From the NCBI RefSeq assembly GCF_024582835.1, contig NZ_CP102096.1, forward strand, positions 1,488,001 through 1,552,000: a DNA stretch of 64,000 nucleotides, read 5' to 3'. Shown here piece by piece: positions 4,740 to 63,800 of this stretch (position 1 is its first letter; each line of letters starts with the position of its first letter). The DNA comes from Vibrio japonicus. Lineage in GTDB: Bacteria > Pseudomonadota > Gammaproteobacteria > Enterobacterales > Vibrionaceae. The position numbers and the translations under genes were made by a program. The notes under the pieces are model-generated. The model saw nothing but the letters and a program-made list of their open reading frames with translations, was not told where the DNA came from and ran no database searches.

Positions 4740-4968
4740 ACTATTTGATTTAATAAAAAATAAAATTTAGTTGCGAAATACGTATCTATTATGTGTACAT
4801 AGTGTATAGTGGCGTCAGCTCTAGTAGTGAGCTATTGATAGAATATTTAGTTCAAGATCTTCTCAGTTTTTTTTCGATTAAATTCGTCATATCTATCCTG
4901 CGATACCTTTTTCTTCATTCCTTATTTAGTAGCTTTCTTTTTAATTTAATCAATGTATCGAGATATAT
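4740..4968 (+). promoter_or_regulatory. Long AT-rich leader of the cold-shock gene
   Basis: About 230 AT-rich bases precede the cold-shock gene with no reading frame of substance. Cold-shock genes of the CspA type usually carry a long structured 5' leader that controls translation by temperature. A small hairpin (AGCTC 4817-4821 with GAGCT 4829-4833) is visible. The promoter itself cannot be placed with confidence. Confidence 0.45.
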
Positions 4969-5181
4969 ATGTCAAATAAAACAACTGGTTCAGTAAAATG
5001 GTTTAATGAAACAAAAGGTTTTGGGTTTATCACACCTGATAACGGTGGTGCAGATCTATTTGTTCATTTCAAATCAATTGCTAGCGAAGGTTTCAAAACA
5101 TTAGCTGATGGGCAAAAAGTTTCATTCAATGTGGAACAAGGTAACAAAGGCCCACAAGCTGGCAACGTTACTTTAGTATAA
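4969..5181 (+). CDS. Cold-shock protein, CspA family
   Basis: A 70-residue single cold-shock (OB-fold) domain. RNP1 is visible as KGFGFI (about residues 16-21) and RNP2 as LFVHF (about 30-34), with the usual GxVKWFN opening. Such proteins bind single-stranded RNA and DNA and act as RNA chaperones at low temperature or in growth transitions. Full length for the family. A strong terminator follows at once, so it is monocistronic, and the leader is long as in cspA. Which csp paralogue it is cannot be said. Confidence 0.95.
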
Positions 5182-5189
5182 GAATCTCT

Positions 5190-5223
5190 AAAAAGATCTC
5201 TCCTCATTGGTGAGATCTTTTTA
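5190..5223 (+). terminator. Terminator of the cold-shock gene
   Basis: AAAAAGATCTC (5190-5200) is the perfect inverse of GAGATCTTTTT (5212-5222), with an 11-base loop and a T-rich end. Confidence 0.85.
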
Positions 5224-18973: not shown

Positions 18974-19110
18974 CTCCAAACTCAATGAGTTCATGTTGGC
19001 CATAATCTCTACACGCAACACCCCCGCATAAAACGCACCCGCATAAAAATGGCAGCTTTCCCCCAGCTTTGGTAGTATTGCGCCACCATAAATTATTCCA
19101 GGTTCAAGAC

Positions 19111-19686
19111 ATGCACCTATCAAAACTAACCAACGAAATCTTTGAGCATCTATACCGCGATATCACTGAGTTCCGTAGCACTTTCGACCTTCCTGTTGCT
19201 TTTCCACAAAGCTTGGATGAGAAAGCCGACACGCTACACACGTCTTTAGCGATCGAGGAGCTGACTGAACTCGCGGAAGCAGATTGTAAAACAGAGCAAG
19301 CAGATGCGATCGTTGATAGTGTTTATGTCTTAATGGGTCGTCTGGTTCACTTAGGCCACGATAAAATCGAAGACAATCTTGCGATTAACTACCTGATCGA
19401 CCTACTGCTGAATGTTGCGGTTAACCGCGATATCGACTTTGTACCGTGCTGGGACGAAGTACATTCAAGCAACATGAGCAAAGTGTGTCGTAACGAGAAA
19501 GAATACGCCGATACAGAAGCACACTACGCAGAGCAAGGCATCAAATTGATGGCGGTACAGAAAGGCGACTACATTATCGCGAAATGCGCGGAAGATTTTG
19601 TCTCTGAAGGCAAAACGATTCGCCAAGGTAAAGTTCTTAAATCGGTTTACTACCGCCCTGCAGACTTATCGGCACTAACGGCTTAA
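19111..19686 (+). CDS. All-alpha NTP pyrophosphohydrolase (MazG/DR2231-like)
   Basis: 191 residues from the ATG at 19111. The catalytic metal-binding pattern is visible as IEELTELAEADCKTEQADAIVD (about 46-67), i.e. EExxE followed by ExxD. The C-terminal half (YIIAKCAEDFVSEGKTIRQGK) is found in the DR2231-type family that hydrolyses non-canonical or dUTP-like nucleotides to monophosphates. Substrate not assignable from sequence. Single gene; it converges on the btuD strand. Confidence 0.85.
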   Translation: MHLSKLTNEIFEHLYRDITEFRSTFDLPVAFPQSLDEKADTLHTSLAIEELTELAEADCKTEQADAIVDSVYVLMGRLVHLGHDKIEDNLAINYLIDLLLNVAVNRDIDFVPCWDEVHSSNMSKVCRNEKEYADTEAHYAEQGIKLMAVQKGDYIIAKCAEDFVSEGKTIRQGKVLKSVYYRPADLSALTA

Positions 19687-19715
19687 AAACGTTAACAGCC
19701 TAAAAAGTAGCAGAT

Positions 19716-19751
19716 AAAAAGCCGCCACCTTGGGCAAACCATCGGTGGCGG
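19716..19751 (-). terminator. Rho-independent terminator, minus strand
   Basis: On the minus strand CCGCCACC (plus 19744-19751) pairs with GGTGGCGG (plus 19722-19729) and is followed by CTTTTT. It would end the proposed small RNA, or read-through from btuD 250 bases upstream. Confidence 0.8.
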
Positions 19752-19841
19752 AAGCTGCCATGAAGCAACAAGGCTCAACGTTCACCAATCCGCAGATTTC
19801 CCTTTGCATTGGCTTAGCCTAACAAGAACGAGAATGTATCA
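19716..19841 (-). ncRNA. Candidate sigma-54-dependent small RNA
   Basis: A transcript of about 126 bases is predicted from the sigma-54-type promoter at 19850-19868 to the terminator at 19716-19751. Its first bases form a perfect small hairpin (GAATG-ATA-CATTC). A middle stem is possible (CCAAT with ATTGG), and the 3' end is a strong stem plus T5. There is no plausible reading frame. It does not contain the conserved core I know from Qrr RNAs, although promoter and enhancer are organised in the same way. The existence of the RNA is inference from signals. Confidence 0.45.
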
Positions 19842-19849
19842 TTCTTAAC

Positions 19850-19868
19850 TAAGCGATTTGCATGCCAG
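19850..19868 (-). promoter_or_regulatory. Sigma-54-type promoter (-24/-12)
   Basis: The minus strand reads CTGGCATGCAAATCGCTTA. GG (19866-19865) and GC (19854-19853) are exactly 10 bases apart, and the -24 part TGGCATG differs from the consensus TGGCACG at one base. The -12 part TCGCT is weaker. The promoter points towards the terminator, away from any coding start. Confidence 0.55.
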
Positions 19869-19951
19869 CTTTTCCATTTCTTTAAGTTATTGATTTACAA
19901 AAACTTAGCCATTCTTGGAATTTCTTTACCAAAACTTGATGAGCTTAAAAC

Positions 19952-19964
19952 GTGCAATATGCAC
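19952..19964. promoter_or_regulatory. LuxO-like palindromic enhancer site
   Basis: GTGCA-ATA-TGCAC, a perfect inverted repeat. It contains TGCA-W3-TGCA, 11 of the 13 positions of the LuxO site TTGCA-W3-TGCAA. It lies about 85-100 bases upstream of the -24 element, a typical enhancer distance for a sigma-54 activator. Confidence 0.45.
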
Positions 19965-20000
19965 CAAAGTGAGCGTCTTTGCCGTGTTAATTGGGTGGTA

Positions 20001-20756
20001 TTAGTCAAAAATCAGTACGGGTTTTGATGCGACCATTGCTTTCGTCACCTGAGTTTTGAATACTCTTGCAAGTTCTGCTTCTGAAAGGACATCTTCAGGC
20101 TCTCCGAACCGCTGCATAACACCATTATCCAGCAACAGCACTTTATCCGCATTGTGGAGCGTCCGATTCAGATCATGATTGGACATGACCACGGTAATTC
20201 CCATCCCAGAGACTTTACGAATCAACTGATAAAGCAGACCTTCTTGGCCAATATCAAGCGGTGCAGCAGGTTCATCAAGAATCAATAATTTGGCGTTTGG
20301 ATTTAATGTCGGCCAAATCTGCAAGCAAATCGCACATAGCCGAACTCTCTGCCATTCACCGCCAGAAAGATGATGAATCGGCCTTAACAATTTGTCGTTC
20401 AGCTCCAAAAGCCCCGCCAGTTCTCGAACCGTCGCATCCACTTGCGTTGTGTTTTTTTGTGCACTTGAAGGCACAGACAGCATCAAATACTGCGCAACAA
20501 TCAAGTTAAACGCGGGGCGATCACTCTGGCTTAGAAAAGCGCGATAACTTGCCAATGTTTCAATAGATGACTTCCCCACTTCGACATCGTCAATAAACGT
20601 TTCTCCAACGCATTCTAAAAGACCTGACAGCGCGGATAAAAAGGTGCTTTTTCCGCTGCCATTGGGGCCAATAACATGAAGCACCTCACCTGTTTCTACG
20701 CTCAAAGAAAGCGGGAGAAGTCTTGAACCAACAGACAGACTCTTAACGTGAATCAT
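20001..20756 (-). CDS. btuD: Vitamin B12 import ATP-binding protein
   Basis: 251-residue ABC ATPase: Walker [10 protein letters not shown] (30-38), signature LSGGEWQR (about 133-140), Walker [13 protein letters not shown]. It energises cobalamin import through the BtuC permease. Its start overlaps the end of btuC by 14 bases on the same strand, so they are one transcript. The periplasmic BtuF is not in this window. Family assignment rests on the pairing with btuC and on similarity. Confidence 0.93.
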
Positions 20757-21738
20757 GATTCTTCACCAACATCCAAATAAATACAGGCGCACCAATCGTG
20801 GTGGTTACCACGCCTAATGGCAGCTCTGCCGATTCAAGAGAAGTACGAGCGATAATATCCGCAAACACTAACAGCGTTGCGCCGCTTAAAGCGGATAAAG
20901 GTAATAGATAACGGTTTTCGCTGCCTAATGCTAGCCTCAGCAGATGCGGGACAACCAAGCCAACAAAGCCAATAACACCACCAAGCGCAACCGCCCCCCC
21001 GACTAACACAGAAACCGCGAGTATGAGTTTCCACCTGACCGCTTCAACGTCGATGCCAAGCTGTTTAGCATGAAGTTCGCCCATCATGAGTTTATCCAGC
21101 ACCGCCCCTTTAAAGCAGAGCCAAACCAATACCGGCACAAGGAACAAGGTTAAAATGTGATGGTGCCAGCTTGCGCCTCCGACACTTCCCATCAACCAGT
21201 ACATCAACTGGCGTAAACTCAGTTCATCACTGAAATAGAACGCCCACGTAACCACAGCGCCGCTCAAGATTCCTAAAGCCACACCGACGAGCAATAAACG
21301 CGTTGTGGTTAACTTAGCTGAACGCGCAAAAGAAACTAATAGCAAGGTAAAGAGCAGCGCCCCAATAACAGCGGAAACCATAAACCCGATCGGCGTTGCA
21401 AGCACAGGAATAAAAAACAGCACCAATACCATCATGACACTGGCCCCGCCAGATATGCCAAGCACGCCAGGTTCAGCGAGCACATTCCCCAACAGCACTT
21501 GTAAAACAGCGCCAGATACAGCGAGCGCCGCGCCGATGGCAATGGCAGTCAGCAATCTTGGTAAACGGAGTTGGAGAACCAGCTTCTCCATCAAAGGCGT
21601 AATGTCGGAAAACGGGGATATCATCACTTCCCCTACCATCAGGTAGATTAAGCTAAGAATAAGTAGGATCAGGCTGGCTGAAATAGCAAAAATATTCCAG
21701 CGTCGCTGCTTGCGATAGATTAGCTGACTAAATTCCAT
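20743..21738 (-). CDS. btuC: Vitamin B12 import permease
   Basis: 331 residues from the ATG at 21738 (an in-frame TTG lies 5 codons earlier). About ten transmembrane helices of the FecCD/BtuC family; family motifs include [20 protein letters not shown] near the N-terminus and [19 protein letters not shown] (about 240-258), the loop that couples to the ATPase. It imports corrinoids from the periplasm. No cobalamin riboswitch is evident upstream. Confidence 0.93.
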
Positions 21739-21855: not shown

Positions 21856-22884
21856 TTAATCGTAAACGATCTGACCGTCTTCGTAACGCGTTTTAACAGG
21901 GCAAACCATCAGTGCTGCACGCTGGCCAATAACAACGTTTCTGTTCGGGAAGACGATCGCTTCACCTTCGTTCTTGGCCATTAATGGTTTATCACCATCG
22001 TGACCAAAGACTTCGCCATGCTTAAACGCGGTGAAGTTTTCGACATCATCATCAAACAAGAAATCGAAATCATCATGCAGACGAACAATAGTACGACTTA
22101 CTCTGTACATCGTCGGTTTGCGCGGTAAATGCTCTGCCTCAGTTGAAGCCACCAGATCACGTAGCGCCAGATCAAAGGCAACCAGTTTCTCGAGATCGTT
22201 TTCACCGATACGAGCCACACGGCCAAGTTCAACAGTTAATGCCTGTGCACCGTAGTTTTCTGCACTAAACCAGCTAAATGTGCTTGATGGTGCGTTGGAA
22301 AACATAATCGCTTCGATGTGTGCGCTCGCAATAAACTCCATCAAGGCTCTGCTTCTTACAGGGTGACGAGTTTTAGGGCTCACAACGAACGAGTAATGTT
22401 TCGACAAACGGATGGCACAGTGTAAATCTAGGTGCCAACGCTGTTGTTGCTCTGTCCCTTGGTAGAAGTCAGCCACGATCTGTTTTAAGTTCGCCGCGAT
22501 ATCCAACTCTTTAGATGGCTCGTACTCTTTTTCATCAAAGAGACGATTTAAGTTCATTTCTAAGAAACGAGTGTGAGCGTTTGTTGCTTCAGGGTGAGCA
22601 ATAATGAAAAGCAGTCGTTCAGTGACTGTCTGAAAACCAGACTGAATATCTGAGATAATTTTGTCGACAATTTCCATCGGTGAAGTTTCGTCACCATGAA
22701 TGCCACAAGATACAATAATATGTTTGCTGTCAGACGATAAATGCTTTGGAATGACTTCCAGAACACCACGTTGATGCAATTTAAAGATGGTTCCACCAGC
22801 TACTGTCATTTCTGCAGCGGGCATTTCTTGTTCTAAATCTAAGCTGTCAAAAAGAAAAGATTGGCGAAAGAGGTTGTTCGTCAT
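21856..22884 (-). CDS. astE: Succinylglutamate desuccinylase
   Basis: 342-residue zinc carboxypeptidase-like (M14-related) enzyme. Zinc ligands: His63 and Glu66 in GIHGDET, and a His in WHLDLHCAIR. AstE removes succinate from N-succinylglutamate, the last step of the arginine succinyltransferase (AST) pathway. The other ast genes are not adjacent; astE stands alone here. Length normal. Confidence 0.93.
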   Translation of the reverse strand: MTNNLFRQSFLFDSLDLEQEMPAAEMTVAGGTIFKLHQRGVLEVIPKHLSSDSKHIIVSCGIHGDETSPMEIVDKIISDIQSGFQTVTERLLFIIAHPEATNAHTRFLEMNLNRLFDEKEYEPSKELDIAANLKQIVADFYQGTEQQQRWHLDLHCAIRLSKHYSFVVSPKTRHPVRSRALMEFIASAHIEAIMFSNAPSSTFSWFSAENYGAQALTVELGRVARIGENDLEKLVAFDLALRDLVASTEAEHLPRKPTMYRVSRTIVRLHDDFDFLFDDDVENFTAFKHGEVFGHDGDKPLMAKNEGEAIVFPNRNVVIGQRAALMVCPVKTRYEDGQIVYD

Positions 22885-61293: not shown

Positions 61294-61418
61294 GGGAGTG
61301 CATGTGGTGGTTCAATACCATTGGACACTGAATCAGGTGAGTGGACTAATCGGGTGTTACAAAATTTGGGGTAAATCTGAAGCGGCTAAACATGCATGGC
61401 TATACTTCGTGAAGGCTT
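61294..61418. other. Spacer before the intron 3' end
   Basis: Unassigned DNA. A frame near 61361-61420 encodes a peptide like SEAAKHAWLYFVKA and stops just before domain V of the intron relic. By position it may be the remains of an intron-encoded protein or of the sequence around it, but I cannot identify it. Confidence 0.3.
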
Positions 61419-61490
61419 GAGCCTAGTGCGGTGAAAGTTGTACGCTGGGTTCTTAGAGGGACGACACTTGGTAACAGGTGTCGTCTACTC
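61419..61490 (+). mobile_element. Group II intron 3' end (domains V and VI), truncated
   Basis: Bases 61419-61452 form a 34-base domain V: it begins GAGCC, has the GGTGAAAGTT tetraloop region, and ends GGGTTC. Domain VI follows (TTAGAGGG, stem ACGACAC 61461-61467 with GTGTCGT 61478-61484). The conserved AGC triad is present. No reverse transcriptase gene and no 5' part lie upstream, so this is a relic. It differs at several positions from the copy on the minus strand at 63.7 kb. Confidence 0.75.
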
Positions 61491-61509
61491 GACATAACCG
61501 AGCTAGAGC

Positions 61510-63434: not shown

Positions 63435-63690
63435 CTAAATTGCTCTCCTTTATATTTTGCTCTAACAAATCGTCTTCAGACGGAATTAAAAGCTAATATT
63501 TAGCCTCGCTTATGACCAAACCGTCCAAAAGGCTGGCGTTAACAAACTTACAGTCTTTTCAGATGCAAGTGCAACTATTTACCTATGCCACTCAATGTAT
63601 CCGCACTCACAAGGCTTGGTCCCAATCACTGTTCCAGTAAACATCCATAACTTTAAGATAAAGTATAGTAATGATTCTAACCAACAAAGG
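63435..63690. other. Spacer between the protease operon and the second intron
   Basis: Should contain the promoter of the two-gene operon on the minus strand. No gene is supported. A short stretch around 63531-63545 (GGCTGGCGTTAACAAAC) recalls the edge of an integron attC site but lacks a complementary arm. Confidence 0.4.
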
Positions 63691-63764
63691 TCGGATAGGC
63701 GACACCCGTTACCGAGTGCCGCCCTCCTAAGAACCGTACGTGCAACTTTCACTGCATACGGCTC
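63691..63764 (-). mobile_element. Group II intron 3' end (domains V and VI), minus strand
   Basis: Minus-strand domain V occupies 63764-63731 (34 bases, GAGCCGTATGCAGTGAAAGT... ending CGGTTC), nearly the textbook sequence, with an intact AGC triad. Domain VI follows (GGCGGCACTCGGTAACGGGTGTCGCC) and the intron ends near 63691. The maturase reading frame stops 36 bases before domain V. The intron continues beyond the right edge of the window. Confidence 0.85.
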
Positions 63765-63800
63765 AAGCCTCCTCTAAGGCGTATTACGTTACCCAGCAGC

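Follow-up and report, generated by a model that had tools for sequence, protein, structure and literature searches.

The question raised by the 314-base gap between a MazG-like gene (plus strand, ending at 19686) and btuD (minus strand, ending at 20001) of Vibrio japonicus is whether it holds a small RNA (sRNA) gene of its own and, if so, which activator controls it. The window, i.e., the whole stretch of 64,000 nucleotides that was analysed, was originally predicted to carry a sigma-54 promoter, a palindrome and a terminator at this locus, and all three are present on the minus strand at the predicted positions when both strands are read (Table 1). Taken singly, these parts occur at the level of chance, as the dyad GTGCRNNNYGCAC has seven sites in the 4.24-Mb genome, against ten for the reversed pattern, and a terminator scan of positions 19000–21000 returned three sites, against a shuffle mean of 2.9. 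Among the seven genomic dyads, only that of the sRNA locus has a promoter-like site scoring 10/12 within 400 bases downstream, one other being followed by a site that scores 9, and the locus stands above chance because it is conserved in relatives.

Table 1. Features of the sRNA locus and its neighbours in the V. japonicus window
Feature	Positions	Strand	Basis or remarks
MazG-like gene, convergent neighbour	19111–19686	+	Name assigned in the present analysis
Small RNA (long form of variant A)	19715–19841	-	Predicted, ~126 nt; start (19841/19840) from promoter distance, end from terminator
Intrinsic terminator	19716–19751	-	Sequence read, fold, conservation in kind, paired changes in short-form relatives; stem 19751–19744 pairs with 19729–19722, then T5 at 19720–19716
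Presumed seed, near-invariant 5' block GATACATTCTCGTTCT	19825–19840	-	Alignments; unpaired in predicted fold
Sigma-54 promoter TGGCATGCAAATCGCT	19852–19867	-	GG 19866–19865, N10, GC 19854–19853
IHF-type site AATCAATAACTTA	19883–19895	-	Sequence read; consensus count in relatives
Enhancer, two tandem NtrC-type dyads (predicted)	19940–19975	-	Half-site alignment, glnA comparison
Enhancer half-sites		-	h0 19975–19972, h1 19964–19961, h2 19955–19952, h3 19944–19941
Palindrome GTGCA-N3-TGCAC	19952–19964	-	h1 and h2, where the two dyads join
btuD	20001–20756	-	Over curated BtuD cut-off; same-strand upstream neighbour
astE-like gene (succinylglutamate desuccinylase family)	21856–22884	-	Above NF003706 cut-off, below TIGR03242 cut-off

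The intergenic DNA is matched in 56 of the 196 genomes of the genus, many of these matches covering only the promoter and the first bases of the RNA. An exact 20-mer of the 5' block was found in 39 stretches of the GTDB collection, of which 37 are from Vibrio and two are unrelated and lack the promoter. A sequence model of the promoter and 5' end, built from the 37 copies, was positive in 79 of the 329 genomes of the family, all in one of its 13 genera (Vibrio), and the gene is missing by this model from the other 250, a count that weak copies may have escaped because the filters of the model search are stricter. Conservation in related species, which the original prediction had named as its own test, is borne out. 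The invariance of the 20-mer in the 37-row alignment is a selection effect, given that it was the search key, and the promoter core (TGGCA and GC), which lies outside the key, is invariant in 37/37 aligned copies. The rows of two non-Vibrio stretches with no promoter (L048, L063) and of one copy with only 22 bases upstream (L056) were dropped before counting. For the promoter and enhancer counts, copies with fewer than 230 bases upstream (e.g., L044 and L059) were also dropped and identical upstream regions were counted once, and the regions of close relatives enter these counts though they are not independent.

The copies were sorted into three variants. Variant A consists of GATACATTCTCGTTCTTGTTAGGCT and its relatives, with a length of about 70 nt, or of about 126–150 nt when it has an insert, as in the window copy, while variant B consists of ...TTCTACTTTCGTTAGGC and its relatives, with a terminator that is mostly of the GCGCC type, and variant C of ...TCGTCCT. 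Three copies (L158, L159, L160) deviate inside the 5' block and could not be fitted to the core pattern, and the 67 upstream regions counted below do not include them. The RNA would be about 60–150 nt long overall, lengths that are rough because some copies were scored on an upstream hairpin in the terminator scan. Two genomes with variant C, G069 and G041, are Vibrio genomes of 3.4 and 3.6 Mb that are 99–100% complete.

The start of the RNA was placed by its distance from the promoter: from the promoter GC to the G of GATACA downstream there are 12 nt in 66 of the 67 distinct upstream regions and 13 nt in the remaining one. As 12 nt is the usual sigma-54 start distance, the RNA would start where the conservation starts. 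A sigma-54 promoter at this distance is a feature of the NtrC/sigma-54 regulon, and the Qrr sRNAs have a sigma-54 promoter as well. Between the enhancer and the promoter, near -55, there is also an IHF-type site, the strict consensus being present in 35 of the 67 regions (0.35 expected) and the relaxed consensus in 57 (3.25 expected).

The palindrome had been taken for a site standing on its own, and proved to be the junction of two tandem dyads of the GCAC-N7-GTGC type. On the half-sites, 60 of 62 upstream regions align well as tandem dyads (L154 and L155 scored too low in this alignment and are not among its 60), with h1 (GTGCA) and h2 (GCAC) being the strongest. At a fixed step of 11 bases after h2, h3 keeps its G in 59/60 regions and its C in 59/60, and h0, which lies 11 bases before h1, keeps its G in 42/60; a T is found two bases ahead of h1 in 56 of these 60 regions and ahead of h3 in 50. 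The enhancer thus reads as two tandem 15-base GCAC-N7-GTGC sites placed 20 bases apart, of which the outer half-sites, h0 and h3, are degenerate in the window copy; in L011, L025 and L026, the first dyad is complete and the second has a single mismatch in h3. The inner half-sites are better kept than the outer ones, a bias not accounted for by two NtrC dyads alone. The position of the enhancer is -123 to -126 in 32 of the 67 regions, -135 to -138 in 14 and -146 in three, classes that differ by about one helical turn, and the h1–h2 junction motif is absent from the range scanned in 18/67.

Given this arrangement, the comparison with NtrC-controlled promoters is informative. The upstream regions of glnA from 20 genomes have GCAC-N7-GTGC dyads and sites such as GGATCATTTTGGTGCA, and GATTAATTTTGGTGCA is typical of many of the sRNA enhancers. 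Like the sRNA locus, NtrC/sigma-54 promoters such as that of glnA are preceded by GCAC-N7-GTGC sites and TTTTGGTGCA half-sites; the sRNA locus differs in that its enhancer serves an RNA, not a protein gene, and is composed of two dyads with degenerate outer half-sites. An NtrC matrix was made from 17 glnA dyads and a LuxO matrix from 24 qrr-promoter dyads, each with its threshold at the 99% shuffle level, these being the activators compared out of the 19 strong activator domains in the genome, where both NtrC and LuxO are over the curated cut-offs. The glnA matrix passes 35 of the 67 sRNA regions, 19/20 glnA regions and 0/30 qrr regions, while the LuxO matrix passes 0/67, 0/20 and 24/30, respectively, the scores of glnA and qrr on their own matrices being circular and those of the sRNA regions not. 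By variant, the glnA matrix passes 25/51 regions of A, 9/9 of B, all of which have a full GCAC-N7-GTGC dyad, and 1/7 of C, the 32 failures (of 67) being 26 of variant A and six of variant C. The sRNA is probably activated by NtrC, the failures among variants A and C and the degenerate outer half-sites of the window copy weighing against a firmer statement.

It is possible, if unlikely, that a different activator is in charge of this sigma-54 sRNA, such as an orphan or DctD-like protein recognising the inner dyad, GTGCR-N3-YGCAC. Such a protein would account for the better conservation of h1 and h2 and for the poor fit of variant C to the glnA matrix, and the number of activator domains in the genome leaves room for it. 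On the other hand, it is at odds with the retention of the G and C of h3 at its 11-base step and of the G of h0, with the full dyads of variant B, and with the inner-type dyads elsewhere in the genome, none of which is followed by a good promoter.

Very improbable, by comparison, is activation by LuxO of a Qrr-like RNA, as the original prediction had proposed. The promoter class is identical and the inner dyad shares the TGCA-N3-TGCA spacing of the LuxO sites, yet LuxO sites (TTGCA-N3-TGCAA) were not detected by the LuxO matrix upstream of any sRNA copy, and the Rfam model of Qrr (RF00378), which finds these RNAs at four other places in the V. japonicus genome, has no match in the window at the gathering score and none at the sRNA stretch at E values up to 5. 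Qrr was found in 18 of the 20 genomes searched for it (18 carrying the sRNA and two, G143 and G152, without it), and in that search, which was for Qrr only, the two genomes with no Qrr were G069 and G041, which carry the sRNA. The matrix scores, the geometry of the tandem NtrC-type sites and these Qrr-less genomes together argue strongly against LuxO, which is rejected here as the activator, and in favour of NtrC.

The Qrr sRNAs nonetheless resemble this one in that their genes, too, are short, intergenic and served by a sigma-54 promoter and an activator site at a distance, and differ from it in their Rfam match, their LuxO-type sites and the stem-loop that Qrr sRNAs have at the 5' end. The sRNA had also been expected to begin with a hairpin of this kind, an expectation that fails, given that the GAATG arm, which shows no conservation, precedes the predicted start, and that the first 21 nt of the window RNA are unpaired in the predicted fold. 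The sigma-54 sRNAs of the GlmY/GlmZ type have Rfam models too, and the sRNA matches none of them; the only families that reach the gathering score in the window are the cspA thermoregulator and the group II intron. The cspA match lies at 4814–5223 (plus strand), and the two group II intron matches lie on opposite strands near the end of the window, at 61417–61493 (plus) and 63690–63766 (minus).

Other sRNAs described in the literature were compared with this one. GlnZ, which is released from the 3' end of the glnA mRNA in the Enterobacteriaceae, is likewise tied to nitrogen limitation (a tie that for the Vibrio sRNA is inferred), and differs in that the Vibrio sRNA has its own promoter and another locus (PMC9731577). 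The sponge RNA QrrX of V. cholerae is also a conserved Vibrio sRNA, and differs in its activator, which is of the LysR type, and its locus, between vca0830 and vca0832 on chromosome 2 (PMC9732341). The conserved srvg23535 of V. alginolyticus, of about 107 nt, has a sigma-70 promoter and lies downstream of rctB (PMC6186989). Vcr043 was considered as a possible identity and set aside, as its locus is the interval from VC1045 to VC1046, next to a sigma-factor gene (PMC8545128). A description of the sRNA was not found in the literature searched, which included PMC9817140, PMC7398697, PMC7695739 and PMC9438474, and a search with the sRNA sequence itself returned no paper; the RNA may already bear a number in some transcriptome list, given that subscription papers and supplementary tables lay outside the search. 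The locus thus appears to represent an undescribed family of Vibrio sRNA genes under putative sigma-54 control that is distinct from Qrr. The core of the original prediction, a stand-alone, enhancer-controlled sRNA gene of the sigma-54 type that is not Qrr, is in this respect backed by the conservation, the promoter spacing, the terminators and the lack of an Rfam match.

The sRNA typically has astE-btuCD and the MazG-like gene as its neighbours. In 33 of the 37 named loci, btuD is the upstream neighbour in the same orientation, the other four being cut by the end of the stretch, and the MazG-like gene, which has no NCBIfam match, is convergent in 29, two of the eight loci without it (L035 and L066) being cut short. 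The ast operon of E. coli is controlled by NtrC, and the astE-like neighbour counts among the points in favour of a nitrogen-responsive sRNA. Six of the nine variant-B copies (L141, L142, L143, both copies of L145, and L148) lie between the astE-like and MazG-like genes with no BtuC or BtuD match in a stretch of about 4.6 kb, while in L144 and L146 the astE-like gene lies on the opposite side and the opposite strand, and around L152 none of the five genes used as queries was matched. Of 30 genomes chosen from the non-matching ones, 29 have the MazG-like gene, and in all 29 the 5' block is absent from the 900 bases read after it (about 400 in L174), six of them having a promoter-like match without the block; where btuD adjoins the MazG-like gene in the non-matching genomes, a plain short gap follows btuD. 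Given the neighbourhoods of variant B and these MazG-like loci that lack the block, this is probably an old gene of Vibrio that has undergone several losses or moves, and it has no fixed tie to btuCD, so that the caution with which a link to cobalamin uptake had been offered, by position only, was right.

Two arrangements of variant B may be mentioned here. In L145 (genome G138), the unit of enhancer, promoter and RNA is found twice in tandem, 351 bases apart, with a full NtrC-type dyad in each, and genome G100 has the unit twice as well, the first copy (L148) in the usual place and the second (L152) away from the usual neighbours.

The same neighbourhoods bear on the idea that the locus makes no RNA of its own and holds just the terminator and 3' end of the btuD transcript. 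The sRNA does follow btuD in the same orientation, and one terminator could serve both; however, conservation at the locus is highest in the promoter and 5' block, six of the nine variant-B copies have no btuD match nearby, and the MazG-like gene is kept in the 29 genomes that lack the block, the gap after an adjacent btuD being plain and short, which makes this idea very improbable too.

A hairpin of the terminator type, with a T run after it, is present in 68 of the 69 distinct copies, a count that includes any such hairpin, at least five copies (L005, L018, L024, L028, L061) having been scored on an upstream one; the sole exception is L030, a MAG copy that was also fetched as L066. In the 14 distinct short forms, 97.6% of the terminator stem cells pair, which none of 500 shuffles reaches, and changes on both sides are found at three of the nine stem pairs, a count reached by 13 of 500 shuffles. 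The whole fold of the window RNA is only modestly better than that of shuffles (z -1.47). The conserved unpaired seed and the U-tailed terminator are traits of Hfq-type sRNAs, the binding of Hfq being a prediction. In the long forms, the TATGGCAGCTTMCGCCACC motif before the terminator (19761–19743, minus strand, in the window) is kept in 16 of 17 aligned copies, L035 differing, and could be a second pairing element.

The window copy departs from the prediction that no reading frame lies within the RNA, as it has an ATG frame, at least 31 codons long, that continues beyond the end of the RNA; this frame is not common to the relatives. A small protein gene or dual-function RNA, as little credible as the btuD reading, could be proposed from the ATG frame ATGGCAGCTTMCGCCACC, kept in 16/17 long forms with a stop after six codons in 13, but this frame runs into the terminator stem and is missing in L035, and the short forms of about 70 nt lack the ATGGCAGCTTMCGCCACC motif.

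The search for targets produced no convincing mRNA above control, either in antisense searches of eight and 12 genomes or in pairing against shuffled seeds. With a 17-base antisense and up to three mismatches, 108 matches were found in eight genomes, against 95 for the reversed control, eight of the 108 being the sRNA itself, and with an exact 11-base antisense, 34 were found in 12 genomes, against 20 for the control, 11 of the 34 being the sRNA itself. Pairing of the glnA starts with the seed does not surpass that with shuffled seeds (50 of 60 shuffles giving values at least as low), and the same is true of the Qrr RNAs (22 of 60). The sequence AACGAGAATGT at the start codon of pntB (L294/L301, G147) is perfectly complementary to the 5' block; pntB was rejected as a target, as the perfect match is present in G147 only and not kept in the other sRNA-bearing genomes compared. 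A candidate near a thiolase-like gene, presumably fadI, common to three genomes, was also discarded, the match being on the opposite strand. A ranking of 180 reading-frame starts, from the window and ten stretches of its own genome, was not counted as evidence.

In summary, the anatomy read at this locus comprises a sigma-54 promoter, an unpaired 5' block, a terminator, an IHF-type site and a tandem-dyad enhancer, and from it we infer the expression of the sRNA, the binding of NtrC and IHF, the role of Hfq, and the function. The explanation that we favour, and regard as reasonably likely, is a stand-alone Vibrio sRNA gene that is activated by NtrC, IHF and sigma-54, acts in trans, and is induced by nitrogen shortage. 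When nitrogen is short, phosphorylated NtrC would bind the tandem enhancer sites, IHF would bend the DNA between the enhancer and the promoter, and the sigma-54 RNA polymerase would make the sRNA, which, probably with Hfq, would pair through its first ~16 bases with several mRNAs, most likely blocking their translation, as a post-transcriptional arm of the nitrogen response.

A broader reading may be advanced more tentatively, in which this is an ancient Vibrio sRNA, lost in several lineages, and the counterpart of Qrr for nitrogen: through a seed of 16 frozen bases it would reset many mRNAs when nitrogen is short, and it would be driven by two fused NtrC sites in which the inner half-sites matter most. 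The frozen 5' block makes the sRNA a good candidate for target capture, and the anatomy of its promoter opens the way to direct genetic tests. If this interpretation is true, Vibrio would have a dedicated nitrogen-response sRNA, built on a plan similar to that of Qrr and responding to a different signal, and the RpoN regulon would gain a part that has been overlooked by the annotation of protein genes.
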